From NCBI GenBank assembly GCA_011033025.1, contig WFMF01000021.1, positions 372,001 through 436,000 of the forward strand: DNA of 64,000 nucleotides. Direction: 5' to 3'. The position numbers were made by a program, and so were the translations under genes. The notes under the pieces are model-generated. The model saw nothing but the letters and a program-made list of their open reading frames with translations, was not told the DNA's origin and searched no databases. Shown here in pieces: positions 5,918-56,100 of this stretch (its first letter is position 1; each line of letters begins with the position of its first letter). This DNA comes from Beroe forskalii. Lineage: Eukaryota; Ctenophora; Nuda; Beroida; Beroidae.

Positions 5918-6738
5918 GTAATCATAGCATTTATGCACCCACTAAATTTTGCATTTAATGGCAAATCTTCTCATCAAGTGATTATACAGTAAAATATTAA
6001 CTAAATCAGATACCGTTACTACTAATCAATTAGGCTTGGGCCATGGTCGGGATTATCAAGAATAATTTGACTTTATGCGATATGACAAAAGGTTCTGTGT
6101 CTGATGACTTTTTGTAAATTGTTACCTCTTGTATCTCAAATGATTGCTTAACTGTTCAGTCTCTAGGTAATTTGAAATACATCCATATAATATAACAGGG
6201 TATGTTCTGTATTTCATTTGTTTTGTGGATCTCAGAGCCTGTTCTAAGCTTCTTTTGAGTATAAGAGACAGCTAGAACCTGCAAATTAAATTTCTATTAT
6301 CGTCTCAAAATCATGAAGCTTTTAGTTTCTATCGATGTGATTTATACGGAGCCACTGCTGTGAGCTGTACAACTGTATAATTTTCTGATTCATTACTTTG
6401 GTATTGCAGAGTGTAGTTTTCAATTTGTAAATCATCTGTATCAATCAGAATAGAAATTTTCATGTCTGCACAACTACAATGAGAATTTTCAATGAATACG
6501 CGTATTTTCTCAAATCTAGTTTTCCGATCTGTTTGGTTAATTTGCGGCGCGGCGTAACGCCATAGCGGCTCAAAAGAAAGCTTGGTCAGAAATAGGGGTG
6601 TCGTTTCGCGACACCCCTGGTTAGGGGAATCCTATGTTGACAAGTCGTAGGACCTATTTTTGGAAGAAAAGGCTTGCGCAGCACCATGCGCGCGATCAAA
6701 CAGGGACACATAACATGTGGCAAAGTTTTTGCTAATTA
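5918..6738. other. spacer between tandem copies
   Basis: No gene was seen. Near 6540-6640 there is a GC-rich stretch with GTGTCGTTTCGCGACACC, a 9-base-arm hairpin, followed by CCCCTGGTTAGGGGAA, the terminal motif of the small elements described at 954-1020 and 62975-63146. Confidence 0.45.
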
Positions 6739-6800
6739 CGTATACCCCTGTTCGCATCGCGCGTCGCGTAAATGACACACATCTATGTGGGCTTAAGAAC
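6739..6800. repeat. CpG-rich micro-palindromic repeat, copy 2
   Basis: Same sequence type and orientation as 863-925: a TATACCCCTG end, a CGCG-rich core, then CATCTATGTGGGCTTAAGAA. It marks the left edge of similarity between tandem copies A and B. Confidence 0.55.
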
Positions 6801-6835
6801 ATTGGTTTTATATGCCCTCATAGATGCAATGTGCG

Positions 6836-7083
6836 GTACGTCTCCCATGTAAACGGGAGCCTTCATTATCTATGACAATGACGTCACTCAGAAAAATATA
6901 ATTAAGCGCATCTAGCGCTTTAGAGGATAGGGTTACGGTTTTGGTTAGGGTCAGGATTTGTTAGGTTTAGGGTAAGGATCAAGGTTAGGGTTTTGGTTAG
7001 GGTCACAGTTAGGTTTAGGATACAGAAAAATTGACCTTTAGATCTGTGACGTCACTCAGCCCCGTTTACATGGGAGAGATACC
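6836..7083. mobile_element. 248-bp MITE with 9-bp target duplication
   Basis: The left end reads GTACGTCTCCCATGTAAACG; the right end is its imperfect reverse complement. A second inverted block, GACGTCACTCAG, lies inside each end. The direct repeat CAATGTGCG flanks it (6827-6835 and 7084-7092). Copy A has one uninterrupted version (CAATTTGCG, near 1028). The interior holds degenerate GGTTAGGG-type repeats. An 8-9 bp duplication fits hAT, P or Mutator-type elements; the superfamily is not settled. Confidence 0.8.
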
Positions 7084-7116
7084 CAATGTGCGTGCTCATT
7101 GAGTATTGGAGTATTG

Positions 7117-7200
7117 TTGCCAGATGTTGCCTGCCCCATATTTTTTTCAAGTCGGGCGCGCGCGTTCGCGCACGCGAGGGGGCCAGGCAACGACTGGCAA
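7117..7200. mobile_element. 84-bp micro-MITE with 8-bp target duplication
   Basis: The ends TTGCCAG and CTGGCAA are inverted repeats, and inner TTGCCTG pairs with CAGGCAA. The flanking 8-mer GAGTATTG (7109-7116) is repeated at 7201-7208. Copy A shows the empty site near 1047-1062. The size, inverted ends and 8-bp duplication suggest a minimal hAT-type derivative. The core is CpG-rich. Confidence 0.75.
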
Positions 7201-7526
7201 GAGTATTGATGACCAGGATCCATCCACTGATCATATACTTCTCTTCACTTAGTGTGTTGCTTAATTTCTTTGCATGGAGTAAAGACAAAGACCAACGAGC
7301 AATTTCAGTTTCATTCAAGCAGGTGGTCACTGCACTTGATGGTGCTATACCCTGGTACCAGGGGATGACTGCTGGTGGCCTTCCTTATAAAAAGACCTTG
7401 CAATTTAAACACCCAGAAAGCTGAGGTAAGTATTGGACTGATGATGCCTGCACACCACTCATCTTGGTGTGACTCACTTAGATCCTACTGCTCTCCATAT
7501 TTATATTGTATGTTGTATTACCTAAA

Positions 7527-7765
7527 GGGATCGTGTTGCCCAGTCGGCAAAATCCTTTTATTTATTTATTTATATTTATGTTGGTGTTCAAGTTCAGAAT
7601 TGGTAAAAAGTGTTGCAGATTGAAGTCTTGCCGATTAATGTCTTGAAGAAAAATTTCTTTGATTATTATGAATCAAATGATCAAGTGTTTTGAAGAATGA
7701 TGTGCCTTGGATCGTGTTGCCCAATTGGCAAAATCCTTTTATTTATTTTATTTATTTAATTGTTA
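7527..7765. repeat. two short retroelement 3'-tail fragments ending (TTTA)n
   Basis: GGATCGTGTTGCCCAGTCGG followed by AAAATCC and (TTTA)n occurs at 7527-7579. A close relative lies at 7707-7765. Copy A lacks the first one and reads GGGATCATGTTGGTG, so TGTTG is repeated around the insert in copy B. They look like extremely 5'-truncated ends of a LINE or SINE. Confidence 0.45.
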
Positions 7766-7940
7766 CTTTCAATGAAAGACAGCAGTTTTATTAAATACTC
7801 ATTATCAATGATAGAAAAAGCATGACTTAACATGTGTTGAGTCTATGGAAACAGGTGGTTGTATTGCTCAAGTGTTGATTGTCTATTAGAGCATCTGGAT
7901 TGTGCTTTACATATCTATTATCTAACAATCCTGTTTCTAG

Positions 7941-8727
7941 ATGTCAGTTTTATGCAAGTGTTTCAACAGTGCATCAACATGGCAAAGATCTAAATTGTGT
8001 TGGCCTATGGCTTCCAATGCATTCTAGAAGTAAACGACCTGATAGTATCACTCTGATAAATTGAAAATTGACAGAACTTTCTTGGTAAACCTGTATTTAC
8101 TGGAAAATCATATTGGAATGACATTCTGTTCAAAAATTTAAGGAAATCCCATAGCATAATGGTTCCACAGATACTAGTAAATCTTAGTGGATTTGGTGCC
8201 CCACTAATAGACTACTATCATTACACAACTATACCAGTTTGTGCAACAATTTTCATCATTATTTATCCTGCAATGTATTGGTTTGCTTCAATGCAGATTA
8301 TGAATCTTTCTTTAGAAGTATCAACGAAAACTTTGTTCATAAGAACATGCACTAATTCTGTTCACTCATTTCCAATTGACCAATGCTCTTTGAAAGGAGT
8401 GTCTCTGAAAGTAGGGCAACAAAATCTTTACTTTTATAAAATGGGCAAGTTTGATACAAGAAATCTAAATGTTTTGAAGCAACTGATGATTAGTTCAGGG
8501 GATTCTGAAAAAGAATAAACCAGACATCTATATCAATAAAGTTGATGGTATGTTTACAAAAGAGTCTTTGTTGATATTAGTTGGAACATGTTTCATTTTT
8601 GGCTGGTTTATACTTGTTAACTGGTTATTCTGACCTTCTTTACTTCATGTCATTAGTAGGGAAGACTCAAGAAAGTTTATTTGGTTCCAACTTTTTCCTA
8701 AACAGATTTGGGCACATATTACTCTGA
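7941..8727 (+). pseudogene. frameshifted copy of the membrane-protein gene at 2244-3029
   Basis: It is nearly identical to the upstream gene over its full length, but carries five or more single-base length changes. These include an extra C near 8014, a lost C in the ACTCCTGAT run, a lost T before CTTGG, extra A in the GAAAGAATAA run and an extra T in the ATTTTGG run. The frame is therefore broken near codons 30-45 and again near codons 190-215; the middle stays readable. It may be a decayed duplicate, or an allele with assembly errors in homopolymers. Confidence 0.7.
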
Positions 8728-38800: not shown

Positions 38801-41800
38801 CGTTAAGTTGACAACAATGCCCAAACACTATTTAGTTGCTAATTCTTTATACTCTAGACCTCTGGCCTTTAATTATCCTTCAAATATTCAAGAACTTCCT
38901 ATGTGCGAACGAGGTGCCGCGAAGCGGCGCCGAGTGAGCTGTATAAATTTGCACGCCCCCAAAAATTCTGGGCTGGATCCCAGGATCCATGCCTGCACTT
39001 CACTTAGCGAACACTTCATTTGGCGGGCACTTCACTTGGACACTGTACTTGGACACTGTACTTGGACACTTCACATTAAATTACAAACCTTTCTGAGGTT
39101 CTTGTTCTCCTTTGCGAATATGATGTTCTGCTCCTTTAACTCGTCAGGCTTCACTTTGAAGGAGTTAAACTCTCCCTTAACCTGCCGTAACTCGGACTCC
39201 TTCTCAGCTAACTGTCTTCTTAGCGTGACCACTGGTGAGAAACGAACTAAGATGATTTAGAAAACATAGGTGAGATACGAACTATGGTAAGATGATTTAG
39301 AAAACATTGGTGAGATACGAACTAAGATGATTTAGAAAACATTAGGGGAGTGGAATGTAATGAACCTTATTCTGGGGCGAGGGGGGTCGTCCCCCTTGTA
39401 GTAGGGCCTAGGGGGAGGAAGATCCCCTATTATCTATCAGAGACAAGACATATTTAACAGCATGACCGAACACCTTCTGCACTAACGTTAGAGTTGACGA
39501 CGGCCATATCGGAGTAATTAGTTTCTAAACAAGGATATCAAGAGCAGCCTTCTGTCACAAACCGGTGCCGGAGGAAGCGGACTTTTCTCGTTTCAGATTC
39601 TCCACCTCTTTCGTCAGATCCTCTTCTTTTCTCGTTTTCTCTATTAATTCAGTCTGCAAAAGTCTACGTTATGTACATTGTACCTATGTATGTAAGTTTA
39701 TAAGAGTGAAATGTGTGCCGCCTGATTTTCTCTCAAAATTAAAGAATTTCAAAGGAGAATACGGCTAACTTAAAGATTTTAAAATTGTTTACCCCTTTCC
39801 AGTACTCTATTACCTGTAAGCTAGCAACGACAGTGTTAGCAGTTTGGGTCTCAGATTTCTGCTTTTCTGTTTGAAATTGGGCTGTGTTTTCTCCCGATCT
39901 CAGAGTTTTAATTTCTCGTTCTGAAGAGGGACATACTGGTTGCGATGTTTGAATTACAATTGATAATTTATACTATTCTTTCGCACGAAATTACGTTTGC
40001 AATTTGGCAGTATCGAAGAAGCCCGACCACTCCACCGAGTTCCAAGTATGATTCCGCGGTATGATTCCACGGAGTCATATAAATATTGCTTATTGATGTG
40101 TACATAATAATAAGATTACAAAGCAAATGAAAATGGTTGAATTACCAAGGTGGGAGATAGTTTGAGCTTGACAGCTCCCCAATTGCTCGATAGACTTGAA
40201 GTTCTGCACGCTCTCCTCCAGGGAGGAGAGTTTCTTGTCCTGTGCCAGAACAGTCTTCTGGAGGTAGTCCAGCAGGTCCTGTTTCTCTGCAGCATTCTCA
40301 TGATCTGTCACGTGACTATTGGGGTGAGGAATCCCGTTCAACACGTTCCTCTTCATGGTCGCTCTCCTAAGTAGCAGAGCAGGAGTCATGGTGAAGTTGT
40401 AATGTTCAGGTGTCATTAAACAGTCACATAGCTATGTTGAGATCATAGTATTTTTTCAGGGGTTGAACTTCTCGGTGGCTAATTTCAGTAGGTAGTCAGT
40501 GGGATACTGAAACCCGAAATAAGAATAGGTCATATAATTATTGTCACAAAAGATAAAATGTCATCCCATAGGAAGTTAAAATGAGAAGTGAGAAAGTTAC
40601 CCAAGAAGAAGGGCTGAATGGTGTCGAGGTGGGAGGACTTCTTTGCTTTCCACCTGAAAAAGTGGCAAAATCAGAGTTTAAAGTTTACAGTGGAAAAATA
40701 TATCGTTTTGTGGTAAGGTACCTGATACTTGAAATCTTGCCAACGATGATCGGAATTAGGCATCACTATTCATTGAAATTCATTATTGAATCTCATTGCA
40801 TCACTGGTGTTGCCATGGGAAACTATCAAATGAGATTTGAGCATGTGCTCAAGTGCAGTAAATTTCAAATCTAATTCTAGATTGCATTGGCACAGATCCA
40901 TTCACGGATGAGGTTAACTAATAAATGCTTGACGTAATCTTTGCATTAGATGATGCAGAATCAATATAGAATTACAGGAACCTCAAACATTAATAGAGAA
41001 AGTTAATAGTTTAGAAATATGACGAACATTGATTTCAATGACCTGCAATGTTCACAGCTATTGAATGAAATTTAGAACTACCTTGCCAATAGGAGCAGAG
41101 TTGGGTCTGAGATCAGTAGCCACAATAGTTGGAGGAATCAAGCCAGGAGTTAGGAAAGTGAATGATGGACTGTCTGAATGAAAAGGGTATTTTAAATGAA
41201 AAACTTATTAGCAAAAGATGACATTTTGATTACATAATCAGTTGCAAAAACCCTTCCCTCCCCAAAACACCATTGGATAATTGACCCATTTCAAACTATT
41301 TACTGAAAGCCATTAACTTACTTGGGCCCAGGCCAATAACGTCTCCACAGTTTAGTTTCACAGAAGCACCAGTAACCCTACATTGGTTAACAAATGTGCC
41401 ATCTGATGTTCCTAAGTCATGGAGAATGAACTCAGCCCCACTTCTCTTTTCAATTATTAGATGCTGCGGTGCTACCTCTGGCCCCTGAAATGGAAGTAAT
41501 GGAGCTAATTATGTTATCCAAAGGCTTCTCTTTTGTTGTAGTAGTGGTGTGCTGTATTAGTCCAGGACGTAAGGTCCAAAAAATGCCATCCGTTAGCAAC
41601 CCATGTTAAAAGCGATTTTTCGACGGTTACTAGGCCTTTAGACCACGTAGAATCGATCTAGCTCGGTCAGGACATCTGATCTCGATGGCGCCAAGTCGAT
41701 ATTGACCACGCCCTTTTTTAAGGTTACGCGCTGGCTTGATATTTCATAACTTGGCTCAGGAAGGTCGTAGAGAGTTCGTTTTGGGCGCAAACGAAGCGCA

Positions 41801-44800
41801 ATGGTCATGTTTCAGCACAATTGTTGAAGAAATTATGCACCAAAATGATCAGAGAAAAAGTTATGACCGAAAAACAGTTTTTAAGCCATATGCGGCGCAA
41901 ATTTTTGGTGATTTTCGAAAATCCGTTAGCAACCCGTGTTTAAAGCGATTTCTCGACGGTTACTTGGCCTTCAGATCATGTAGAATCGAATTAGCTTGGT
42001 CACGGCATCTGATCTCGACGGCGCCAAGTCGATATTGACCACGCCCTTTTTTAAGGTTACACGCAGGCCTGATATTTCATAACTTGGCTCATGAAGGTCG
42101 TAGAGAGTTCGTTTCGGGCGCAAACGAAGCGCAATGGTCATGTTTCTAGACAATTGTTAATAAAGATATGCCCTAAAATGCTCATGAAGATTGTTGTGGC
42201 CGAAAAACTGATTTTTGGGCACCCGCGGGACAGCGGAGGCTATTTTTGTATCTTGGCCCAGGAAAATCGTAGAGAGTTCGTTTTGGGCGCTAATGAATTG
42301 CAATAGTCATGTTTATATACGACTATTTGCCCTAAGATGGCCAGGAAGAGAGTTATGGGCGAAAAATGATTTTTCTAGGTACCTGCAAGGCATAGCAGAG
42401 GCAATTTTTGTATCTTGGCCCAGGAAGATCGTAGAGGCTTTGTTATGGGTGCAAACGAATCGAAATGACCATGTTTATATACGACTTGTAAATAAAGATA
42501 AACTCATGAACAGAGGTATGAGCGAACAACTGATTTTTTGGGCACCTGTGATGCATAGCACCTGCCTCTTGTGCCTCTTTTCCGTTTCCAAAGTTCCAAT
42601 GGGGACCCTATAAGACCACCTGTTGTCGAAGGCCTGTGGTTCATTCCAGTAATAAGTTTTAGTTCGGCTTAGTGTAACCTGGCACTGGAGGGGATGTCAA
42701 TAGTCAATAACGCCTATGTTATTCTTGGCAGGTACCCAAAAATCGGTTTTTCGCTTTTAATTTTGTAAAGGATCGTTTTAGAGCATATTATGCCTAATGC
42801 GTATTGGCAACAACTATTGTTGATAAGTATATATGCAATTAAATGATCGAGAACAGGGTGTTAGCTACAGTGGGGGCGAACACCCCATTGTGGAACCAAT
42901 TTTAAATCGAAAGTCAAGTTGAGTTGTGTAGAAAACATGGTTTTAATTGATGAACTTGCGAAATAGTCCCCTAGCTCCATAGAATGGTAGAATTCACCAG
43001 CCCCCACTAACAATCAAAAGATTCTTAATCTTAAGCTATGCAGCTCCCACAAAGCTCTCATTAGTTCCCACACAGCTTTTTTAATGAGCTCCCACGCAGA
43101 TTAGATGCAACACAGCTCCCAATTATTTGCTCCCATAGATATGAGATCGATCTCATATCTATGGGAGCAAATCATTCAAATTTTCCTTCACATAAGAGTA
43201 ACCACGATGGTACCTTGACTTTGCTGAGGCATTCGACAAAGTGAATCACGAGCTGGGTCAATGTTGGGTTTAGGGTAAACTTCTTCATTGGATCCTCAAA
43301 TACAGGAAATGATTCGTCACCATAAATGGCTTCCATTCTTCTCTCACTCGTCCTCAGTGAAGTACCTCAAGGGTCAGTCCTTAGTCCCTTACTCTTCCTC
43401 GCACACAAACAATCTGCAATGCCATATCACAGGCTCCGTTGCTGGTTGTTTTGCCGATGGCACCAGAATCAGCAAACAAATATCGTCTAATTGTGAAGAT
43501 GTCTCTGTTCTCCAGGACGACCTCAATTCCGTGGTGAAATGGGCGACTCAGAATAGCATGAAAACAAATTCGATATCTCGCCTACAACACTTCATTCAAT
43601 AAGATTCTGTTACTGTTCGTGTTGATAATATCTTGAAGATCTTTCTTTCGCTGTTGTGTGGGTCCAGTACAGCACCCCGTCAGGACATATTCGTAGGTAC
43701 CTCAGCAACCCGTGTCAAATACCTTGGTGTCCACCTCAGTCCAGAGTCCAGAGTCCAGGCATAAAGTAGTCTCTTCAGGCAGTTGCTGCCCAAAAAAAAG
43801 TAAAATAGCTAACTGGGTGCTCAGTGTATTCTCAGACCGGTCGAAAGATGTCCTTATTATGCTGTACAAAAGTATCTTTCACAGTCAACTTGAATATTCC
43901 TATCCAGTTTGGAGCCCTAAAACAGACAAACTGCAATCCACCCAACGTGCTTTTACACACTAGAACATTGGAACTTGTACTACTGGGAAAGGTTGAACAG
44001 ATTTGGTAGATAATGCCCCTCCAGAGGCAGAGAGAGCGGTATGTGATAATGTACATGTGGAAGATCTGGCATTATGTCGTGTCAAACATAATGCCAGAAT
44101 CCCTCTGAATTGGACCACGGACGGCCTTCAACAGGTGAACCAATTAGGTTTCCATCAGATGCAGACAAGAAGTGGGTGCTATTCATCACTGGCGCCCAAA
44201 AAATTGACAGTTTTTCGCTCATAATTCTGTTCCTGCGCATATCTTTATCAAGTAAGTCATATATAAACTTGGTCATTTCGATTAATTTGTGCTCAAAATA
44301 AAGTGTCTGGGACCTTCCTGGGCCAAAGTAAAAAATTGTCTACACTAGTCCACTACGCCCTGCAGGTGTCCAAATTATCAGTTTTTCATCCATTACTCTG
44401 TTCCTGAGCAATATGTTTATCAGTAAGTTGTGTATAAACATGGTCATTGCAATTCGTTTGCACGACATTCCTGGGCCATACGACATAATATAGGGTCCCC
44501 ATTGGAACTTTAGAAACGGAAAAGAGGCACAAGAGGTAGGTGATATGCATCACAGGTGCCCAAAAAATCAGTTGTTCGCTCATACCTCTGTTCATGAGTA
44601 TATTATCTATATTTACAAGTCGTATATAAACATGGTCATTGCGATTCTTTTGCACCCACAACGAAGCCTCTACGATCTTCTTGGGCCAAGATACAAAAAT
44701 CGCCTCTGCTATGCCTTGCGGGTACCAAGAAAAATCACTTTTCGCCCATAACTCTCTTCCTGACCATCTTTGGGCAAATTTTTATCAACAAGTCGTATAT

Positions 44801-46185
44801 AAACATGACTATTGCGATTCATTAGCGCCCAAAACGAACTCTCTACGATTTTCCAGGGCCAAAATACAAAAATAGCCTCCGCTATGTCCCGCGAGTGCCC
44901 AAAAATCAGTTTTTCGCCCACAACAATCTTCATGAGCATTTTAGGGCATATCTTTATTAACAATTGTCTAGAAACATGACCATTGCGCTTCGTTTGCGCC
45001 TAAAACGAACTCTCTACGACCTTCCTGAGCCAAGTTATGAAATATCAAGCCTGCGCGTAACCTTAAAAAAGGGCGTGGTCAATATCGACTTGGCGCCGTC
45101 GAGATCAGATGTCGTGACCAAGCTAATTCGATTCTACATGATCTAAAGGCCTAGTAACCGTCGAGAAATCGCTTTAAACACGGGTTGCTAACGGATTTTC
45201 GAAAATCACCAAAAATTTGCGCCGCATATGGCTTAAAAACTGTTTTTTGGTCATAACTTTTTCTTTGATCATTTTGGTGCATAATTTCTTCAACAATTGT
45301 GTAGAAACATGGCCATTGCGCTTCGTTTGCGCCCAAAACGAACTCTCTACGACCTTCCTGAGCCAAGTTATGGTATATCAAGCCTGCGCGTAACCTTAAA
45401 AAAGGGCGTGGTCAATATCGACTTGGCGCCATCGAGATCAGATGTCCTGACCGAGCTAGATCGATTCTACGTGGTCTAAAGGCCTAGTAACCGTCGAAAA
45501 ATCGCTTTTAACACGGGTTGCTAACGGATGGACCTTACGTCTTGGACTATATCTGAGTCTCATAATAACTGATATTTCAAGAGTTTTAGTTCTTTCTGAG
45601 TAGACTCAATAAGAAGCAGTTTTTAAATTACTTTATCAACGTAACGATGTTCAACATCATATTCATAGTCTCAAATTTGATTCAGGGGCATAGCCATATT
45701 TTTGAAAAGGAGGTGGCGAGATACATTCATTTATTTTGCCTGGCTCAAAGCTATCATTTTATCAAAATTAACAAAATTTTCATATTGTCTGTCCAAAAAG
45801 GGGGAGGCAGCCGCCTGAGTCCTTGAGTCGCCTTCCCCCTGGCTATGTCCCTGATTTGATTGTATAAAGTAGTGTTGTAAAGTTTTAAACTTTAAAAAGT
45901 TACAACACTACTTTACACAATCAAATTTGAGATTATGAATATGATGTTGAACATTGCAACTTTAATAAAGTTCGAGTAATTTGAAAACTGCTTCTAATTG
46001 AGTCTACTCAGATGCATTTCTCCCTCCTGCGCAGTGTGCGCGTTGCCAAGGGGCGTGACATACAGAAAATGTGTCTTTATAAGTAAGATACCTACCTGTA
46101 TAACAAAGTCACAGTCTCTGCTTCCAATAGTAGTTTTAGGAACTGAAAGTGAATATTGGCTGTTTTCAGGGTGCTGTCTCAACAT
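35850..46185 (-). CDS. FHAD1: FHAD1-like protein, 5' half (FHA domain plus coiled coil)
   Basis: Nine exons in transcript order: 46185-46096, 41484-41322, 41173-41082, 40653-40601, 40366-40146, 39920-39814, 39653-39563, 39231-39089 and 36062-35850. All have AG/GT borders and codon phases agree throughout. Exon 1 starts MLRQHPENSQYSL and includes KTTIGSRDCDFVIQ, the first strands of an FHA domain. Exon 2 completes it with PQHLIIEKRSGAEFILHDLG, SDGTFVNQCRV and GDVIGLGP; the Gly-Ser-Arg and Ser-Asp-Gly-Thr motifs match phosphothreonine-binding FHA sites. A Pro/Ser linker follows, then heptad-rich exons such as KQDLLDYLQKTVLAQDKKL and RLQSELADKANLERLL. An FHA domain at the N-terminus followed by long coiled coil is the FHAD1 plan. 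The gene continues past 35850, toward the gap. Intron 1 holds a 4-kb foldback element. Confidence 0.85.
36063..37556. other. FHAD1 intron, mostly unremarkable
   Basis: No exon was recognised. At 37490-37556 there are short direct repeats of GGGCACTTCACTTGG, the site of the hAT-like insertion that follows. Confidence 0.4.
37557..38995. mobile_element. 1.44-kb non-autonomous hAT-like element
   Basis: The ends are CAGGCATGGATCC and its reverse complement. The 8-mer CACTTCAC is repeated directly on both sides. A second inverted block, GGGGGCGTGCA, lies inside each end. The interior has about four tandem units of 155 bp (38219-38870) containing GGGGGCTGCCGCCCCCAGAC. No transposase frame is present. 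It lies in the FHAD1 intron between exons 8 and 9. Confidence 0.8.
39232..39350. repeat. three tandem copies of a unit of about 40 bp in an FHAD1 intron
   Basis: Units read GGTGAGATACGAACTAAGAT followed by GATTTAGAAAACATT. The array begins next to the acceptor of exon 8. Confidence 0.7.
41558..45549. mobile_element. foldback-like element, copy 1 (3992 bp)
   Basis: It starts TAGTCCAGGACGTAAGGTCC and ends with the near-exact reverse complement, flanked by TAT on both sides (41555-41557 and 45550-45552). Left arm 41558 to about 42612 and right arm about 44490-45549 are inverted copies. Each arm holds two larger blocks with the motif GTTAGCAACCCGTGTT and several units of about 120 bp around CGTAGAGAGTTCGTTTTGGG. 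The centre carries a dead RT fragment (43217-44100) and a CCCATAGATATGAGATCGAT palindrome at about 43131. No transposase was recognised. Long, internally repeated arms resemble Foldback/Galileo-type elements. It lies in FHAD1 intron 1. Confidence 0.85.
43217..44100 (+). pseudogene. reverse-transcriptase fragment within foldback copy 1
   Basis: Pieces in different frames read [43 protein letters not shown] and [11 protein letters not shown], then a short stretch like the C-terminal thumb of CR1/Rex-type LINEs. The catalytic FADD motif is FADG, so the enzyme could not work. The same change is in copy 2, meaning the fragment was already dead when the element spread. Confidence 0.75.
45597..46012. 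mobile_element. long palindromic element interrupted by a hAT-like MITE
   Basis: The left arm begins TGAGTAGACTCAATAAGAAG and the right arm ends CTTCTAATTGAGTCTACTCA. Without the 171-bp insertion and its duplication, the arms of about 118 bases form one continuous hairpin whose turn is at about 45890 (GTTTTAAACTTTAAAAAG). It lies between foldback copy 1 and FHAD1 exon 1. Confidence 0.75.
45683..45853. mobile_element. 171-bp hAT-like MITE
   Basis: The ends CAGGGGCATAGCCA and TGGCTATGTCCCTG are inverted repeats with one mismatch. The 8-mer ATTTGATT is repeated exactly on both sides (45675-45682 and 45854-45861). CAGGG ends and 8-bp duplications are typical of hAT. It sits in the left arm of the palindrome at 45597-46012. 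Confidence 0.85.
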
Positions 46186-46814
46186 TTATACCTAAAAATA
46201 TCGTTTTGTGATTCACTGTCATTCACATTGTGTATGCTGGCTCAAAGCCAGTGAATGAATAAAAAACCAAAATCACAATAATAGAATTTGAAACATATGT
46301 AAGTTTCTATATGTAGAGGTTTAGAAAAGTGGAAGTCTGCAATTCAAAACCTTGAATCCTTGAAATTACATTTCATACAGATAGAGTAACACCAAAATCT
46401 GGCAATCAAAGGCTATGAATATTATTAGGTATCATTATTTTGACCAAAATTTCATAAAAGAAAGTAGTCAGAAAACTATTTTAGATTACATAATCAAAAC
46501 TATTATAGATTATGTAATCAAAATATCTTAATTTTCATGAAAATTTTCAAGGATTTTGAATTTTATCCAACCAAAAATTGACCGTTTCCAGAAAAAATTG
46601 TAAAAATTTCATAATTATGATTGAAATAGTATAAATCTATGATGTATTATAGAATATTATCTCACTCAAAATTATCAATGTTTCACTCGAAAACAAAATC
46701 TACTCAATATGTTTCAGAATGTACAGTTCCTTTAGTGCTGCCCATAGAGGGGGGGGGCTGTTCTCCATTCATGGAACTCTTCTGAACCTCTACAGTGCAT
46801 CTCTGTATGTTTTG
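46186..46814. other. upstream of FHAD1 exon 1, AT-rich
   Basis: No exon was recognised. A hairpin with TAGATTACATAATCAAAA-type arms lies at about 46481-46522. FHAD1 promoter sequence would be expected here, but no specific element stands out. Confidence 0.4.
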
Positions 46815-46971
46815 CATATGTGTGCAGACTGCTCAATTGACAGAGGCCTCGATAAAGATGCACGGATTTCCTCTGCGCACTTCAACTTTCAATACAAATT
46901 CCGTCAAAAGCACACAATTTTTGCGCGTCTCTATCGAGCCCTTTTTCAATGGAGCGGTCTGCACACATATG
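46815..46971. mobile_element. 157-bp palindromic MITE
   Basis: The ends CATATGTGTGCAGACTGCTC and GAGCGGTCTGCACACATATG are inverted repeats with one mismatch. The similarity continues inward to about 45 bases (CTCGATA near each inner edge). No clear target duplication was found. Confidence 0.65.
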
Positions 46972-47930
46972 GGTAAGGTTTGCTGCTGTGCTTGATCAGA
47001 AGTCTGGAGGCCTTTCTTTTCCGAGAGCTGAGGCCGTAGCAGGTCTTGGTGTACATCTGCAGCTCTAGGGGTACATCCGCAGCTCCATTATCCAGGAATC
47101 AATCTTTTTGATGGAGGTGAAGGTGGCAGCAGCTGTCTGTGAAGCGTCTGTTGCAACATAAAGGGCCTCCCTCCCAGGCTTGATGGATTCTCTGACTCTG
47201 ACGCAGGAAGATTCCACATGAAGATGGATGCATAACAAAGTCTTGAGATGTTGAGATTGTGAAGGTACTTCTGGTCTGGTACTGGTGGAATTGTCAAAGT
47301 TGAGAGGAGCCAAGTGTTGAGGGTCTGGAAGGTGAAGAGGGGGTAAGGCCCGTGGGGGAGGTAGTTCAAGTGAAGGTCAGGATTCATCAGGAGCTTCAAA
47401 CATCATCTGTAGTGAAGTGGCTACTCTGATCTGGAACTTAGGTTCTGTCGGCTTGTGAGGCAGATGGGAAGGGACTCTGATCTGGAATTTAGGTTATGTT
47501 AGCTTGGGAGGTAGATGGGCAGGGATTCTGATCTGGATGGTGGGTTCTGTGGCATCGACAGGGAGATGGGGAGGGACTCTGATCTGGATCAGATTATCAA
47601 TATGGAGAATAATAACCAGCATAGCCCTCCAGAAAAATGTGCGACCACAAATCAAAACTAGTCCCCCTCAGTTTTTTGGTAGATTGCTGGAAAAGTGCTT
47701 GAAATTCAATAAAAATCCAAATTTTCCAAAAGTTTCACCTGCGGCAGGCATGTCTGCCACTTAATAAGTAATAACTTTACAAAATTTCCATGTCCCCTCC
47801 AGTTTTTATTTTCGATTTACGGCCCTGATTTTGGCACTGCACAGGAATGATTTCACTTGTCATTTCTGGTCAAGAATCATTCCCTATCAGTGTAATATTA
47901 CATAATTTGAAAAACTTATCTATTCATGCC
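46972..47930 (-). other. unassigned stretch with a possible minus-strand coding remnant
   Basis: A minus-strand frame at 47065-47313 reads REALYVATDASQTAAATFTS and similar, without family resemblance. Upstream of it on that strand, 47400-47590 contains two to three repeats of about 70 bp around GGGACTCTGATCTGGA. It may be an exon of an unrecognised gene or repeat-derived. Missing 3' exons of GPN1 would be expected between 46.2 and 50.2 kb, but nothing here resembles them. Confidence 0.25.
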
Positions 47931-48198
47931 TGTACAACTTTTTCATCTCCCAGAACATTCTCCATCATAACCAGTATGGCTTCAGAAAATCTCATTCAAC
48001 CAGTCATGCATTGAACTATTCAGTATCATATATAGAATCTGCCCTTCAAAGGAAGGAACGCATACTTGGCATATTTATTGACTTGAGTAAGGCCTTTGAT
48101 ACTATTGATCACGAGACTCTCCTGCATAATTTATCCCACTATGGAGTTCGTGGAACCACTCACTCACTCATTAAGTCATATCTGTCAAATAGAAGTCA
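47930..48198 (+). pseudogene. LINE reverse-transcriptase fragment
   Basis: One frame reads HNQYGFRKSHSTSHALN, then FIDLSKAFDTIDHETLLHNL and YGVRGTTHSLIKSYLSNRSQ. These are the RT motifs around the first catalytic aspartate. It is cut off exactly where the next element's tail begins. Confidence 0.8.
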
Positions 48199-49320
48199 AT
48201 AAGATAAGATAAGATAAGATAAAATTAATGGTATTGAACCATCACAAATCTTAACAATAATTCAATTCATTGGTTTACATTAAGAACACACCTTTAAACA
48301 CAGGTGTCCATTTATCAATAACATTTTGAAACATTTCATAGAATAAATAGGATTCAATATTATATTATAGAAATGAATTGAAATAACTTAAATTAAAAGT
48401 AGCATGCATTTGTTAATTGTGATTTCCAAATTAAAAACCTATGAAATGAATGCACAAAAGATATCTCATGTCAGCTGCTATAAGATAAAAACCCTTCAGA
48501 AACAACAATATATACAATCATACCATGAAAACAGGAACTTGACATGAGAAAAAGAGATTAACAAAATATCAATTCAATATCAATATAAAAATCAAAGGTG
48601 ATGTTTGCAAATAAATGACTAATATTTATCCCTTTTCGTTTGGCCACAAACGGATTACTCATCAGGTAATCATTAAACTTCTTTTATTAGATAAATAGTT
48701 ACTTCCCTCTATTTTTCTAGTACCAAAGAAGAAACATACCAAAAGTTATCTGGATTTAAAGTACCACAATCCTTCTTATAACATTCTAGACTAGCCTTGA
48801 AAGAGTTAACACTTGATACATCTCTCACAGATTTAGGTAGATTGTTCCAATAAGGTCTGACTCTCTCTGATATAAAACTATCATTCAATTTACGAAAGTC
48901 ACTAGAGCAATATGTAGTATTATACTTATTAGTTAACAAGTTTCTTCTGCTTCTACCAAGTTTAAATAAGTCCTTACTGCATATGCTTCATTACTAACAA
49001 CTTTGAAAGTCTCTATAAGATCACCCCTATCCTCCTTTCAGCTAATGTTGTCAATTTAAAGTTGGTCAAGCCCTCACTATATGGAATTATTATAATGCCA
49101 TTTATCAGTCTTGTGAAACGCTGGACACCTTCCAGCTCCAAGATGAGTAGCCCAGTTCCCATGGTGAGCAGCAGGACTCCACAGTTGGACACAGTACTCT
49201 AGCTTTGGCCTTATAAGTGCTGTATATTCTCAACATTATATCAATATCTTTATTAATTACATTTCTACTAACCCAAGCAATTGTTCTATACTGATGTGCT
49301 GAGCCACCAACCCTCGAAAC
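48199..49320 (-). pseudogene. 5'-truncated LINE with (CTTAT)n tail
   Basis: On the minus strand, decayed frames read STYKA, LEYCVQLWSPA-like sequence and then YWNNLPKSVRDVSSVNSFKA, the typical C-terminal end of CR1/RTE-type ORF2 proteins (48709-48939). The element ends at 48198-48222 with a five-base repeat tail. It inserted into, or next to, the plus-strand RT fragment. Confidence 0.75.
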
Positions 49321-50193
49321 TAGAAATACAATATGGAGCCCAGCGAAACGTTTCGGATTTTTTCGAGGTAACAGCGCGAATATAAGAATTTTAATTTCGC
49401 CGCCGACGTACATGGCTTCATTAGCGCGGCGTAATCACAATATGATATAGGGAGCCGCGCATTTTGAATTTCATATTGTTTGCAGTTCATTAACGCTGAT
49501 CATTGAACTGACGTTCAGTTATCGCGTGGAAGAGTTAACCATCAATTGACCAATGAGGCTGGTTATTTCAAAATTTTTGTGACGTTGCGTTGCAGCTCCT
49601 CCTTCATGAGTCTTTGTCTCGAAGTCAAGCTTTATGATTGCTTCGACCCCTCGTAGGATGTTACCCTACCCTCGCGCGCGCGGCGCTACGTTCCACATTT
49701 GGACGTCACTTTGCGCCTTCCAACAGCAAGTCAGAAGAAAGGGACGGACATCGCCCGTCGATTCGACCCCTATATATCAATGACTGAGAGCGAGTCAGCG
49801 AGAATTATGCGTACGCGTTTTAATTGCTTGTAGTTGTACCTTGATGTATTTGCGAGACGATTAACTTTTTAGTTAATTAGTGATAATTATTAACAACCCG
49901 TTCATTCAGTATTCACACCCAGCCCTCCTAAATCGCCGCATAATTTATATTTTTAACACTTTTTTTGAGTATTACTATTATTTTCTTGTAGTTGTACCTA
50001 ATCGTAATCGTATAACGTTTTGCATGATCCGGCCCATTATTCATCTCGCTATTTGGGCAATTTTACAATTCACACAGGAATTTGGATTATTCAAATGGTC
50101 ACCTACCTTATTTAAGTATTTATAAAAACTACCTTCAACTTAATAAGCAGTTACATAGAAAACTCCCCCTACCCCAACAGAAACTTAAACTAC
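49321..50193. other. spacer in the GPN1 3' region
   Basis: No exon was recognised. GTAGGATGTTACCCTACCCT followed by CGCGCGCG at about 49655 matches, inverted, a motif near 62565-62590 in the right-hand micro-palindrome cluster. Confidence 0.4.
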
Positions 50194-53100
50194 CTTTAAC
50201 TTCTTGAGCTGTGCATCCATTTCCTCCTCCTTCCTTTTCTCGATGATAGTCCTCAGCTGCTCCAAATGTGGTACATATTCTTCATAGTACTCCTTCACTG
50301 CATTACTCACTTCTTTGAAAAAACTGGTGCACCCATTTCCTGTCACAGATGATATACCAACTGTTCGAAGATCCTGAGGATTGAATTATTGTGTATCAAC
50401 ATCTTATTATAACTTGATAAAATGATAAGCATTGCTTGATCTATCAAATTTGATGCAATAAGTAATGACCGACAACATGATATCATTGAAACCCTTGAAC
50501 ATACCTGGGGCAGTATTGGAAGCACCTATTAACTTGCAACTTTCAGTACATAGATTGTCGCCTCCATGCACCATGTACTGAAAGTTTCAAGTGCTTTTGA
50601 TACTGCCCCATGTAAGTTACAAAAATTCAATTGTGTGCAGTAGTCAGCCAATACTTATTCTCTTATTGTGCCGATTTTACATGCATTTGATCAGATTTGA
50701 TAGACTAATAGTCCAGGACGTAAGGTCCAAAAAATGCCATCCGTTAGCAACCCGTGTTAAAAGCGATTTTTCGACGGTTACTAGGCCTTTAGATCATGTA
50801 GAATCGATCTAGCTCGGTCAGAACATCTGATCTCGCTGGCGCCAAGTCGATATTGACCACGCCCTTTTTTTAAGGTGCAGCGCCAGGCTTGATATTTCAT
50901 AACTTTGGCTCAGGAAGGTCGTAGAGACTTCGTTTTGGGCGCAAACGAAGCGCAATGGCCATGTTTCTACACAATTGTTGAAGAAATTATGCACCAAAGT
51001 GATCAGAGAAAAAGTTATGACCGAAAAACAGCTTTTAAGCCATATGCGAAGCAAATTTCTGGTGATTTTCGAAAATCCGTTAGCAACCCGTGTTTAAAGC
51101 GATTTCTCGACGGTTACTAGGCCTTTAGATCATGTTGAATCGAATAAGCTTGATCACGACATCTGATCTCGATGGCGCCAAGTAGATATTGACCACGCCC
51201 TTTTTTAAGGTTAGGCGCAGGCTTGATATTTCATAACTTGGCTCAGGAAGATCGTAGAGACTTCATTTTGGGCGCAAACGAAGCGCAATGGTCATGTTTC
51301 TAGACAATTGTCAATAAAGATATGCCCTAAAATGCTCAGGAAGATTGTTGTGGGCGAAAAACTGATTTTTGGGTACCCGCGGGACATAGCGGAGGAGATT
51401 TTTGTATCTTGGCCCAGGAAGATCGTAGAGGCTTCGTTGTGGGTGCAAACGAATCGCAATGACCATGTTTATATACGACTTGTAAATAAAGACATATTCA
51501 TGAACAGAGGTAGGTATGAGCGAACAACTGATTTTTTGGGCACCTGTGATGCATAGCACCCACCTCTTGTGCCTCATTTCCGTTTCCAAAGTTCCAATGG
51601 GGACCCTATAAGACCACCTGTTGTAGACTGCCCGTGTTTCAATCCAGTAATAAGTTTTAGTTCGGCTTAGTGTAACCTGGAACTGGAGGGGATGTCAATA
51701 GTCAATAACGCCTATGTTATTCTTGGCAGGTACCCAAAAATCTGTTTTTCCCTCTTAATTTTGTTAATGATCGTTTTAGAGCTTATTATGTGTATTGGCA
51801 ACAACTATTGTTGATTATGGGTCAGGGACGGAAGTTCGACACCCGGAAGTTCGACAACCCGGAAGTTAGACACTCTCACTGCTTGTCGAACTTCCGGGCG
51901 TCAACAGACTGAAGTCCGACAGTCCTAAAGCTCGACAGCAGGATCAGGTGTCGAACTTCTGGTCGTCAACAGACTGAAGTTCGACGCCCGAAAGTTCGAC
52001 ACCCTTTCCAAGCTCTAATAAAAGGGAATTCGCCTTCTGCATTGAGTGCCCCTTTATACTAAAGGTAATTACAGGCTTTGTGAGACTTGTATCGATAGAT
52101 CTAATCAGACAAGACGTTATGATAATGAGTATGTATAAGAGTATATGATAAGTAAATATGATAAGATAAGTTAATATAATAACTTAATAAGATAATAAAT
52201 CCATGAATTACTTGAACCTCATTTCAACCTCATTACATCAAACGTTTCATCAAGTTCGCTAATCTTGTCAAAGACCCTGTTATGGCTCGTACCTACAACT
52301 CGTACCTCTAATTCCTGATTAGGTTGGTGATCATAGCCTCACTACATTGCCTTTGCTTCAAGAATCGTAATGACAGCCTATTCAAAGCAAAGTCAAAAGT
52401 TCACTGATTAAACAAGTTAACAAGTTCAGTCATCCCTATCACAGTTCACGTCACGACTCGTGCTCGGAACCATGATAGCATGATGAGGTTGGTGTCTGGT
52501 GATAACAACCCATCACATCTAGCGTTCACCGCTCATCAAGTTCTATTGTCCCCCTTATCGAGGGTCACATGACGGATCGTACTGCAAACTTTCCTTCGGC
52601 GGACCTAAGGCGGACTCGCTTTATCAGGCCTATGGAGAACCTAATCGGGGAAGGATAATGATTGAGATGATTATAAGGGTTAGGGTAAGCGTTTGGGTTC
52701 TAGTTGTGGCAACAAATAGTGCTATGGTTAGGGTTAGGGTGAGTCCGCCTTAGGTCCGCCGAGGGAATGTCGGTGTTCTTTAGACTTTAACCGGTTCTCA
52801 AATCGCCAACTCAAAAGCCTAATGAAAAACATAACTGAAAGATTAATAAACTTCATCAAAGATGACATGACCACCAGACATTAAATAATGGGCGCATGCA
52901 AGTACTTTATCCGATATAACTTGGTGAGGTCGCCTTATTGAACATTAAAAGGGCCCTTCGAAGAGTAAAAAAAGGTGGAGAGCTTGTCGAACTTCCGGGC
53001 GTCAACAGACTGAAGTCCGACACCCAGAAGTTCGACAGCGGGATCAGGTGTCGAACCTCCGGTCGTCAACAGACTGAAGTTCGACAGTCCTAAAGCTCGA

Positions 53101-56100
53101 CAGTGTCTAACTTCTGGGTTGTCGAACTTCTGGGTTGTCGAACTTCCGTCCCCCAACCGTTGATAAGTATATATGCAATTAATAAATGATCAAGAACAGG
53201 GTGTTAGCTGCTACAGTGGGAGCGAACACCCCATTGTGGAACCAATTTTAAATCGAAAATCAAGTTGAGTTGTGTAGAAAAAATGGTTTTAATTGATGAA
53301 CTTGCGAAATAGTCCCCTAGCTCCATAGAATGGTAGAATTCACCAGCCCCCACTAACAAACAAAATATTCTTAATCTTAAGCCATGCAGCTCCCACAAAG
53401 CTCTCATTAGTTCCCACACAGCTCCCTTAATGAGCTCCCACGCAGATTAGATGCAACACAGCACCCAATTATTTGATCCCATAGATATGAGATCATTCAA
53501 ATTTTCCTTCACAAGAGTAACCACGATGGTACCTTGACTTAGCTGAGGCATTCGACAAAGTGAATCACGAGCTGGGTCAATGGCAGGTTTTGGGTAAACT
53601 TCTTCATTGGATCCTCAAATACAGGAAATGATTCGTCACCATAAATGGCTTCCATTCTTCTCTCACTCGTCCTCAGTGAAGTACCTCAAGGGTCAGTCCT
53701 TAGTCCCTTACTCTTCCTCGCACACATAAACAATCTGCAATGCCATATCACAGGCTCCGTTGCTGGTTGTTTTGCCGATGGCACCAGAATCAGCAAACAA
53801 ATATTGTCTAATTGTGAAGATGTCTCTGTTCTCCAGGACGACCTCAATTCCGTGGTGAAATGGGCGACTCAGAATAGCATGAAAACAAATTCGATATCTC
53901 GCCTACAACACTTCATTCAATAAGATTCTGTTACTGTTCGTGTTGATAATATCTTGAAGATCTTTCTTTCGCTGTTGTGTGGGTCCAGTACAGCACCCCA
54001 TCAGGACATATTCGTAGGTACCTCAGCAACCCGTGTCAAATACCTTGGTGTCCACCTCAGTCCAGAGTCCAGACATAAAGTGGTCTCTTCAGGCAGTTGC
54101 TGCCCAAAATAAAAGTAAAATAGCTAACTGGGTGCTCAGTGTATTCTCAGACCGGTCGAAAGATGTCCTTATTATGCTGTACAAAAGTATCTTTCACAGT
54201 CAACTTGAATATTCCTATCCAGTTTGGAGCCCTCAAACAGACAAACTGGAATCCACCCACCGTGCTTTTACACACTAGAACACTGGAAGTACTTCTGGGA
54301 AAGGTTGAAGAGATTTGGTAGATAATGTCCCTCCAGAGGCAGAGAGAGCGGTATGTGATAATGTACATGTGGAAGATCTGGCATTATGTCGTGTCAAACA
54401 TAATGCCAGAATCCCTCTGAATTGGACCACGGACGGCCTTCAACATGTGAACTAATTAGGTTTCCATTAGATGCAGACAAGAAGTGGGTGCTATTCATCA
54501 CAGGCGCCCAAAAAATTAACAGTTTTTCGCTCATAATTCTGTTCCTGCGCATATCTTTATCAAGTAAGACATATATAAACTTGGTAATTTCGATTCGTTT
54601 GCGCTCAAAATAAAGTGTCTGGGACCTTCCTGGGCCAAAACACAAAATTGTCTACACTAGTCACTACGCCCAGCAGGTGTCCAAATTATCAGTTTTTCAT
54701 CCATTACTCTGTTCCTATCAGTAAGTTGTTTATAAACATGGTCATTGCAATTCGTTTGCACGACGTTCCTGGGCCAAACGACATATAGGGTCCCCATTGT
54801 AACTTTGGAAACGGAAAAGAGGCACATACAAGGTAGGTGATATGCATCACAGGTGCCCAAAAAATCAGTTGTTCGCTCATACCTCTGTTCATGAGTATGT
54901 CTTTGTTTACAAGTCGTATATAAACATGGTCATTGCGATTCTTTTGCACCCACAACGAAGCCTCTACGGTCTTCTTGGGCCAAGATACAAAAATCGCCTC
55001 TGCCACGCCTTGCGGGTACCAAGAAAAATCAGTTTTTCGCCCATAACTCTCTTCCTGACCATCTTAGGGCATATGTTTATTAACAAGTCGTATATAAACA
55101 TGGTCATTGCGATTCGTTTGCACCCACAACGAAGCCTCTACGATCTTCCTGGGCCAAGATACAAAAATCTCCTCCGCTATGTCCCGCGGGTACCCAAAAA
55201 TCAGTTTTTCGCCCACAACAATCTTCCTGAGCATTTTAGGGCATATCTTTATTGACAATTGTCTAGAAACATGACCATTGCGCTTCGTTTGCGCCCAAAA
55301 TGAAGTCTCTACGATCTTCCTGAGCCAAGTTATGAAATATCAAGCCTGCGCCTAACCTTAAAAAAAGGGCGTGGTCAATATCTACTTGGCGCCATCGAGA
55401 TCAGATGTCGTGATCAAGCTTATTCGATTCAACATGATCTAAAGGCCTAGTAACCGTCGAGAAATCGCTTTAAACACGGGTTGCTAACGGATTTTCGAAA
55501 ATCACCAGAAATTTGCTTCGCATATGGCTTAAAAACTGTTTTTCGGTCGTAACTTTTTCTCTGATCACTTTGGTGCATAATTTCTTCAACAATTGTGTAG
55601 AAACATGGCCATTGCGCTTCGTTTGCGCCCAAAACGAAGTCTCTACGACCTTCCTGAGCCAAGTTATGAAATATCAAGCCTGCGCGTAACCTTAAAAAAG
55701 GGCGTGGTCAATATCGACTTGGCGCCAGCGAGATCAGATGTTCTGACCGAGCTAGATCGATTCTACATGATCTAAAGGCCTAGTAACCGTCGAAAAATCG
55801 CTTTTAACACGGGTTGCTAACGGATGGACCTTACGTCTTGGACTATAATAGGTTTCATTGTTACAAAATAACTAACCTGATAAAACTCATCTAGAACAAG
55901 ACTCATGGACCGTGAAAGGTTACTAGAATAACTTGGATGAGCATCCAATGCCTCTTGAAATGTCTCAAAGTCCTTCATCCAATCTACAGCAAATTTATTA
56001 TCTACTATGTCAGTCTGAAAGCAGTTTAAAGTTAACAAGGAGATTTATAATCAGCTCTGAGTGATAATATTGCCACTGCAAAAATTTGTATGTATGCAAT

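Follow-up and report, generated by a model that had tools for sequence, protein, structure and literature searches.

The 64,000-nucleotide (nt) stretch of the ctenophore Beroe forskalii analyzed here (assembly GCA_011033025.1, contig WFMF01000021.1, positions 372,001 to 436,000 of the forward strand; hereafter the window) carries two copies of a long-armed, foldback-like element, and both copies are members of a DNA transposon family that is apparently non-autonomous and is dispersed widely through the genome. This family very probably belongs to class II (the cut-and-paste elements), carries a reverse transcriptase (RT) fragment as a passenger and has arms that are kept alike by exchange. The two copies had been delimited in an initial annotation of the window, which reported common ends, a common orientation and the target site duplications (TSDs) TAT and TAA, and its coordinates proved exact. 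Both copies display an identical end layout, TAGTCCAGGACG...GGACTA, each inside its own 3-bp TSD, and consist of the following features:

41558..45549, plus strand: copy 1, whole element, 3992 bp; ends, terminal inverted repeats (TIRs) and TSD read directly and matched genome-wide
41555..41557 (left) and 45550-45552 (right), no strand: copy 1 TSD, TAT; flanks read
41558..42612, plus strand: copy 1 left arm, with a tandem 333-nt unit within it (41588-42216)
44489..45549, minus strand: copy 1 right arm, 94% complementary to the copy 1 left arm
43190..44190, plus strand: copy 1 RT-derived core, a dead fragment of a long interspersed nuclear element (LINE) with the motif FADG; limits set by the query
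50709..55845, plus strand: copy 2, whole element, 5137 bp; ends and TSD read
50706..50708 (left) and 55846-55848 (right), no strand: copy 2 TSD, TAA; flanks read
50709..51611, plus strand: copy 2 left arm; inner limit approximate
54783..55845, minus strand: copy 2 right arm; inner limit approximate
53510..54501, plus strand: copy 2 RT-derived core; RVT_1 match (E 2.4e-6) on the open reading frame (ORF) 53645-53923
51816..53158, no strand: later insertion nested in copy 2, 1343 bp; lacking in copy 1; repeat family D17

The arms of copy 1 are 94% identical across an alignment of 1071 nt and are built of tandem units of 333 nt and 173 nt, which agrees with the inverted arms of about 1 kb made of subrepeats that had been described from the initial reading, and which places the element among those with long inverted arms of the foldback type. 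Copy 2 is longer than copy 1 mainly because of the nested 1343-bp insertion, which is flanked by an apparent 6-bp duplication, GTTGAT (judged by eye from copy 1 versus copy 2), and which is another transposon. Repeated GTCGAACTTCCGG...AGACTGAAGTCCGAC units are found close to both ends of this insertion.

The dispersal of the family was assessed by searching the 216-Mb assembly (1134 contigs). The 20-nt end pattern TAGTCCARGACGTAAGGTCC, with at most two mismatches, returned 138 matches, a count that takes in some inner motifs of a sister family described below, as against a single match for the reversed-pattern control; the end pattern of a second subfamily (subfamily 2) returned 39 matches and its control none. 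Many loci therefore share these ends, as had been expected in the initial annotation, and its concern that other copies might have no common ends was not borne out. Twenty left-end loci were fetched at 10 kb each and the two window copies were added to them, from which 15 end pairs were read at first, no right end being found in L009, L011, L013, L014, L016, L017 and L026 (for L014 it was obtained later). A 10-bp insert, AAAAAATGCC in the main type, is present in the left ends that were read and lacking from the right ends, and the element thus has a direction.

An exact 3-bp TSD was observed for 11 of the first 15 pairs, and for 14 of 18 once three subfamily-2 copies had been added. Locus L024 has two left ends, the second of which, when paired with the right end, gives GTA/GTA and raises the tally to 15 of 18, while the 11.3-kb copy at L014 is bounded by ATT/ATT, so that the final tally stands at 16 of 19 pairs, in keeping with the 3-bp duplications that had been anticipated. 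The length of three is exact, as agreement at four bases was seen in none of the 11 matching pairs among the first 15, and the background is low, with only 10 of 306 cross-copy flank pairings matching at three bases. The duplicated sequences (TAA, TCC, CTG, AGT, AAT, TCT, CAA, TTA, ACA, TAT, TGA, ATA, GTA and ATT) are varied, indicating that there is no fixed target. An empty site, which the initial annotation had proposed to look for, was identified for L028 by comparing the joined flanks of 14 copies with the fetched loci: the joined L028 flanks match a nearby duplicate of the flank that is devoid of the element, with ACA present once and no gap at the junction. Matches spanning the L015 insertion point were not counted as an empty site because they lie inside tandem repeats.

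These data also bear on the possibility, raised at the outset, that one segmental duplication including flanking DNA gave rise to the two window copies. While the copies do lie only 5 kb apart and in the same orientation, their TSDs differ and no listed repeat joins their outer flanks, which shows that they did not arise by one such event; furthermore, copies with other TSDs are present on many contigs, and the probability of this account is negligible.

The cores of the two window copies are 97% identical at the DNA level and, as had been proposed, represent the same internal RT fragment. The copy 2 core matches RVT_1 at 1.7 bits below the curated cut-off, and no RVT_1 match was returned for the copy 1 ORF that holds the motif. 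Core DNA is present in 20 of the 22 loci, and a genome search with the 1001-nt copy 1 core scored 40 loci among 80 candidates, 24 of them at 81-100% identity to the query and 16 at 71-78%; as the limits of the query were chosen by the analyst, common capture boundaries do not follow from this search. Of these 40 cores, 39 are situated no more than 7 kb from an end (32 by way of the main end listing and seven by way of subfamily-2 ends, by inspection), which bears out the earlier suggestion that the element spread as a unit with its LINE piece.

The nearest LINEs with long open frames in this genome share approximately 53-55% protein identity with the core. The differences between the core and one such LINE amount to 0.40/0.29/0.56 at codon positions 1/2/3, and the corresponding profile among copies is much flatter: for the copy 1 core it is 0.18/0.15/0.21 versus L066, 0.17/0.13/0.22 versus L065, 0.10/0.06/0.12 versus L021 and 0.06/0.05/0.04 versus L028. 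At the sequence level, this suggests that the core was under selection before its capture and has drifted since. Rather than an intact RT frame under selection, as a LINE would possess, the core is a broken fragment between TIR arms: all six element rows aligned to the LINE have a common 2-nt gap, and a single-frame reading of 43198-43962 contains nine stops. Since the core and its 2-nt gap are common to both subfamilies, capture predates the subfamily split. The initial annotation had also noted a change from FADD to FADG in both copies; FADG is indeed found in the copy 1 core, yet it is not common to all copies, as among 21 cores the catalytic motif reads FADG in eight and FADD in two (L010 and L011), while in 11 a shared deletion covers the motif. 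A glycine codon occupies this position in both subfamily-2 copies read. Given that the motif states vary among cores, FADG does not simply mark the capture.

Under a retroelement reading, the RT core would be functional and reverse transcription would mobilize the inverted-arm unit. Such a reading could draw on the 20 of 22 loci that carry RT-derived core and on short related RT pieces in copies of the sister family. It is nevertheless very improbable, as the core is broken, the differences between copies are spread over the codon positions, a deletion has removed the catalytic motif in one clade, and TIRs with TSDs of a fixed 3 bp are marks of class II; moreover, none of the copies read showed an intact RT frame evolving under selection. 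Of note, a LINE RT ORF with an RVT_1 match (1.6e-13) is located between the window copies, at 47906-48202, and its letters distinguish it from the LINE piece that was captured as the core.

With the left tip as reference, the RT core lies forward (A) in 10 and backward (B) in 11 of 21 copies; both ends were read for 16 of these, eight per orientation. The RT tree requires at least two changes of orientation, or one if L011 is left out, and its outgroup, the subfamily-2 copies, is forward. In a tree built from the 20 arms of 10 copies, grouping is by lineage and not by side: the left and right arms of window copy 2 cluster together (100/100), as do the arms of window copy 1, L015 and L025 (99/99) and those of the B copies (92/100). 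Gene conversion or crossing-over between arms would be the natural reading of this grouping. Alternatively, the apparent inversion of the core may reflect conversion of the outermost tip, where the 10-bp insert distinguishes left from right. The grouping of arms by lineage speaks for such a conversion, and nothing decisive speaks against it; within the B clade, the L021 left arm matches the copy 1 left and right arms about equally (90.0 and 90.5%), which fits either account, so that flip and tip conversion are not separable there. Tip conversion is accordingly a serious contender, if short of an even chance. Assembly errors within inverted repeats could likewise imitate core flips. Whether by flip or by tip conversion, the arms exchange sequence.

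The window family has a sister family with nested ends. Among 10 end pairs of TACTCC/AACTCC type that were read, seven are bordered by matching inverted flanks; for five of those seven, the 360 bp further out was read and is an inverted arm, and still more was read for two of the five. The TACTCC places had been considered as simple end variants, which was rejected as they sit inside longer arms. The outer ends of the sister family are TACTCCAG or TACTAGAG, plus TAGCCC, and the outer pattern returned 160 matches (seven for the reversed controls), its longer form 165 (one for the control). When read 8 bp outside the boundary set by the script, an exact 3-bp TSD was evident by eye in 13 of 14 pairs, namely those of C1005, C1024, C1126, C861, C925, C219, C405, C246 (two pairs), C581, C99, C248 and C330; in the fourteenth, C264, the arms extend further still (95% over 343 nt) and enclose the motif, and C1 was left outside the count, its left outer end being truncated. 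Approximately 530-550 bp into the arm, the sister family has an inner motif that nearly reproduces the window-family end. The arms of the two families are related, and short RT pieces akin to the core occur in all four sister copies tested (C330, C481, C99 and C248). As inverted copies of the outer arm are located on both sides of the inner motif, this arrangement is not a simple nested insertion.

Three further observations concern elements of this kind. Two facing TAGCCC-type ends lie about 0.4 kb apart at C358:2040344-2040751, a possible miniature inverted-repeat transposable element (MITE) derivative of the sister family. A PIF1-like helicase piece (PF05970, 1.3e-12) is found at positions 6935-7363 of L068 (C264), inside a related long-armed element, and either is a further captured fragment or belongs to a nested element. 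Finally, L067 (C581), a copy of the sister family, contains in its right arm, at 6518-8161, an open frame of 548 amino acids (aa) which by eye resembles a Penelope-type RT with GIY-YIG.

The initial annotation had suggested looking for an autonomous relative that encodes a transposase between the same ends, and no such relative was found in the copies read. The longest ORFs were listed for the inner stretches of 11 of 20 loci (L010, L011, L012, L014, L017, L018, L020, L021, L022, L024 and L026) and for stretches of C330, C481, C398, C203, C581, C264, C99 and C248. A Pfam search of five ORFs, from four loci only, identified RVT_1 in C330 and the PIF1-like helicase in C264, with no match for the second C264 ORF, the 548-aa C581 ORF or a 151-aa ORF of L018. 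Given that no transposase was recognized, mobilization in trans is what we infer.

The ends and TSDs of the family were also compared with those of known superfamilies. EnSpm/CACTA elements terminate in CACT(A/G), while the termini here are TAGTCC (window family) and TACTCC (sister family); a genome search with PF02992 (Transposase_21, EnSpm/CACTA) returned no matches, its control being likewise silent. PIF/Harbinger elements duplicate TWA targets. A non-autonomous group of that type would be consistent with the 3-bp TSD and with the 35 matches to a Harbinger-type transposase (PF13359, DDE_Tnp_4) in the genome; however, TSDs such as TCC, CTG, AGT, AAT, TCT, CAA, ACA and TGA, among others, are not restricted to TWA, and none of the 35 matches was near an end, by inspection, among the ends listed (100 of the 138, 100 of the 160 and 100 of the 165 places, together with the subfamily-2 ends), which renders this assignment improbable. 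The 16 matching pairs agree with the 3-bp TSD of Zator and the 3-4-bp TSD of AcademX, as given in PMC10045372. Mobilization by a transposase of either type is thus conceivable but rather doubtful: the putative fit is confined to TSD length, and a search with PF07592 (Zator, ISAzo13-related transposase) returned no matches, a result that is uninformative as the control was likewise silent. A literature search returned nothing that was recognized as this element, although Repbase may list it. It may tentatively be speculated, though this is rather unlikely, that the families form a TA(G/C)TCCAG-ended lineage with 3-bp TSDs and possibly represent an undescribed superfamily or transposase group, in which onion-nested families arise by switching between inner and outer ends, arms are homogenized, the core is able to flip and an old RT core marks common descent.

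Elements of the foldback-like kind are known, and the present family is distinct by its 3-bp duplication, nested ends, RT pedigree and two core orientations. Galileo (P superfamily) and other Foldback-like elements of Drosophila likewise have long, internally repetitive inverted arms, many copies without a transposase and exchange between copies, and PMC3573991 also discusses exchange of arm sequence and describes Galileo copies as bounded by 7-bp duplications. The window family differs in its 3-bp TSD and in its ends, and the RT-derived core is a feature of its own; no P-type transposase was seen in it, although P family models were not searched. Mutator-like elements (MULEs) have TSDs of 8-11 bp. 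In plant MULEs, an inner TIR may likewise lie inside an outer one, and tandem external and internal TIRs are known there, with no TSD around the inner TIR according to PMC3310237. This differs from the present genome, in which each type of end, inner or outer, also delimits a family that is mobile in its own right and has 3-bp TSDs. Pack-type transposons capture foreign DNA and, as in the present case, multiply a foreign gene fragment between their ends. PMC3310237 includes a MULE carrying a gene fragment. The capture in the window family differs in that it is an old LINE fragment, common to two subfamilies (71-78% DNA identity).

The favored explanation is thus a non-autonomous class II family with an RT passenger, in which a DDE transposase supplied in trans would recognize the TAGTCCARGACGTAAGG ends, and insertion by way of a 3-nt staggered cut would leave 3-bp duplications that vary in sequence. 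The LINE RT fragment would have been captured long ago and would since then have been a decaying passenger, while exchange between the arms, presumably by gene conversion or crossing-over as the element folds back or is repaired, would keep the long arms alike and, by the same process, leave the core pointing either way with respect to the tips.

A number of results weigh against this explanation or narrow it. No transposase was recognized between window-family ends in the copies read, where most ORFs were judged by eye. Three of the 19 pairs (L015, L018 and L025) have no exact TSD; L009, L011, L013, L016, L017 and L026, for which no right end was read, stand outside that count, and a clean natural empty site is available for one copy only. 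No RT core is present in L017 and L026, both one-ended, among the 22 loci compared, and the core at C203:277682 has no end within 7 kb among the main and subfamily-2 ends listed. The codon-position differences among copies are not perfectly even, as in the values for L021. The second change of core orientation depends on the one-ended L011, whose arm resembles the L010 right arm behind a left-type tip, a combination that tip conversion explains as well as a flip does. Lastly, the arms tree leaves the two L028 arms unresolved and joins the L020 left arm to the L021 right arm (91/97), and over the outer 125 nt a copy's own partner arm is the best in its row for six of 13 copies; due to these exceptions, exchange is clear between lineages, not copy by copy.

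Each window copy is adjoined by a minus-strand exon, as follows:

41323..41487, minus strand: host exon with an FHA domain, beside copy 1; PF00498, E 5.1e-11
55877..56014, minus strand: exon of a GPN1-type host gene, adjacent to copy 2; PF03029 (ATP_bind_1), E 1.4e-5, 1.5 bits below the curated cut-off

The initial annotation had placed each copy in an intron of a different minus-strand gene. The adjoining minus-strand exons were confirmed; the genes are presumably FHAD1 and GPN1, and the intronic location is probable from the position of the splice sites, the exons considered being those on the near side. Elsewhere in the window, a 51-bp tandem repeat (D18), of which three copies were found, is located at 47425-47588, and a short palindromic, MITE-like stretch (TGGGGCAGTATTGGAAGCAC...) was noted by eye at 50520-50605, just 5' of copy 2.

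While the family by itself reveals no new enzyme, it provides a many-copy natural record of the evolution of long-armed foldback elements, encompassing the use of end motifs, the likeness of arms and changes in core orientation, with the captured RT core serving as a near-neutral pedigree marker for these evolutionary steps. Furthermore, 1-kb inverted arms next to exons are likely sites of rearrangement.

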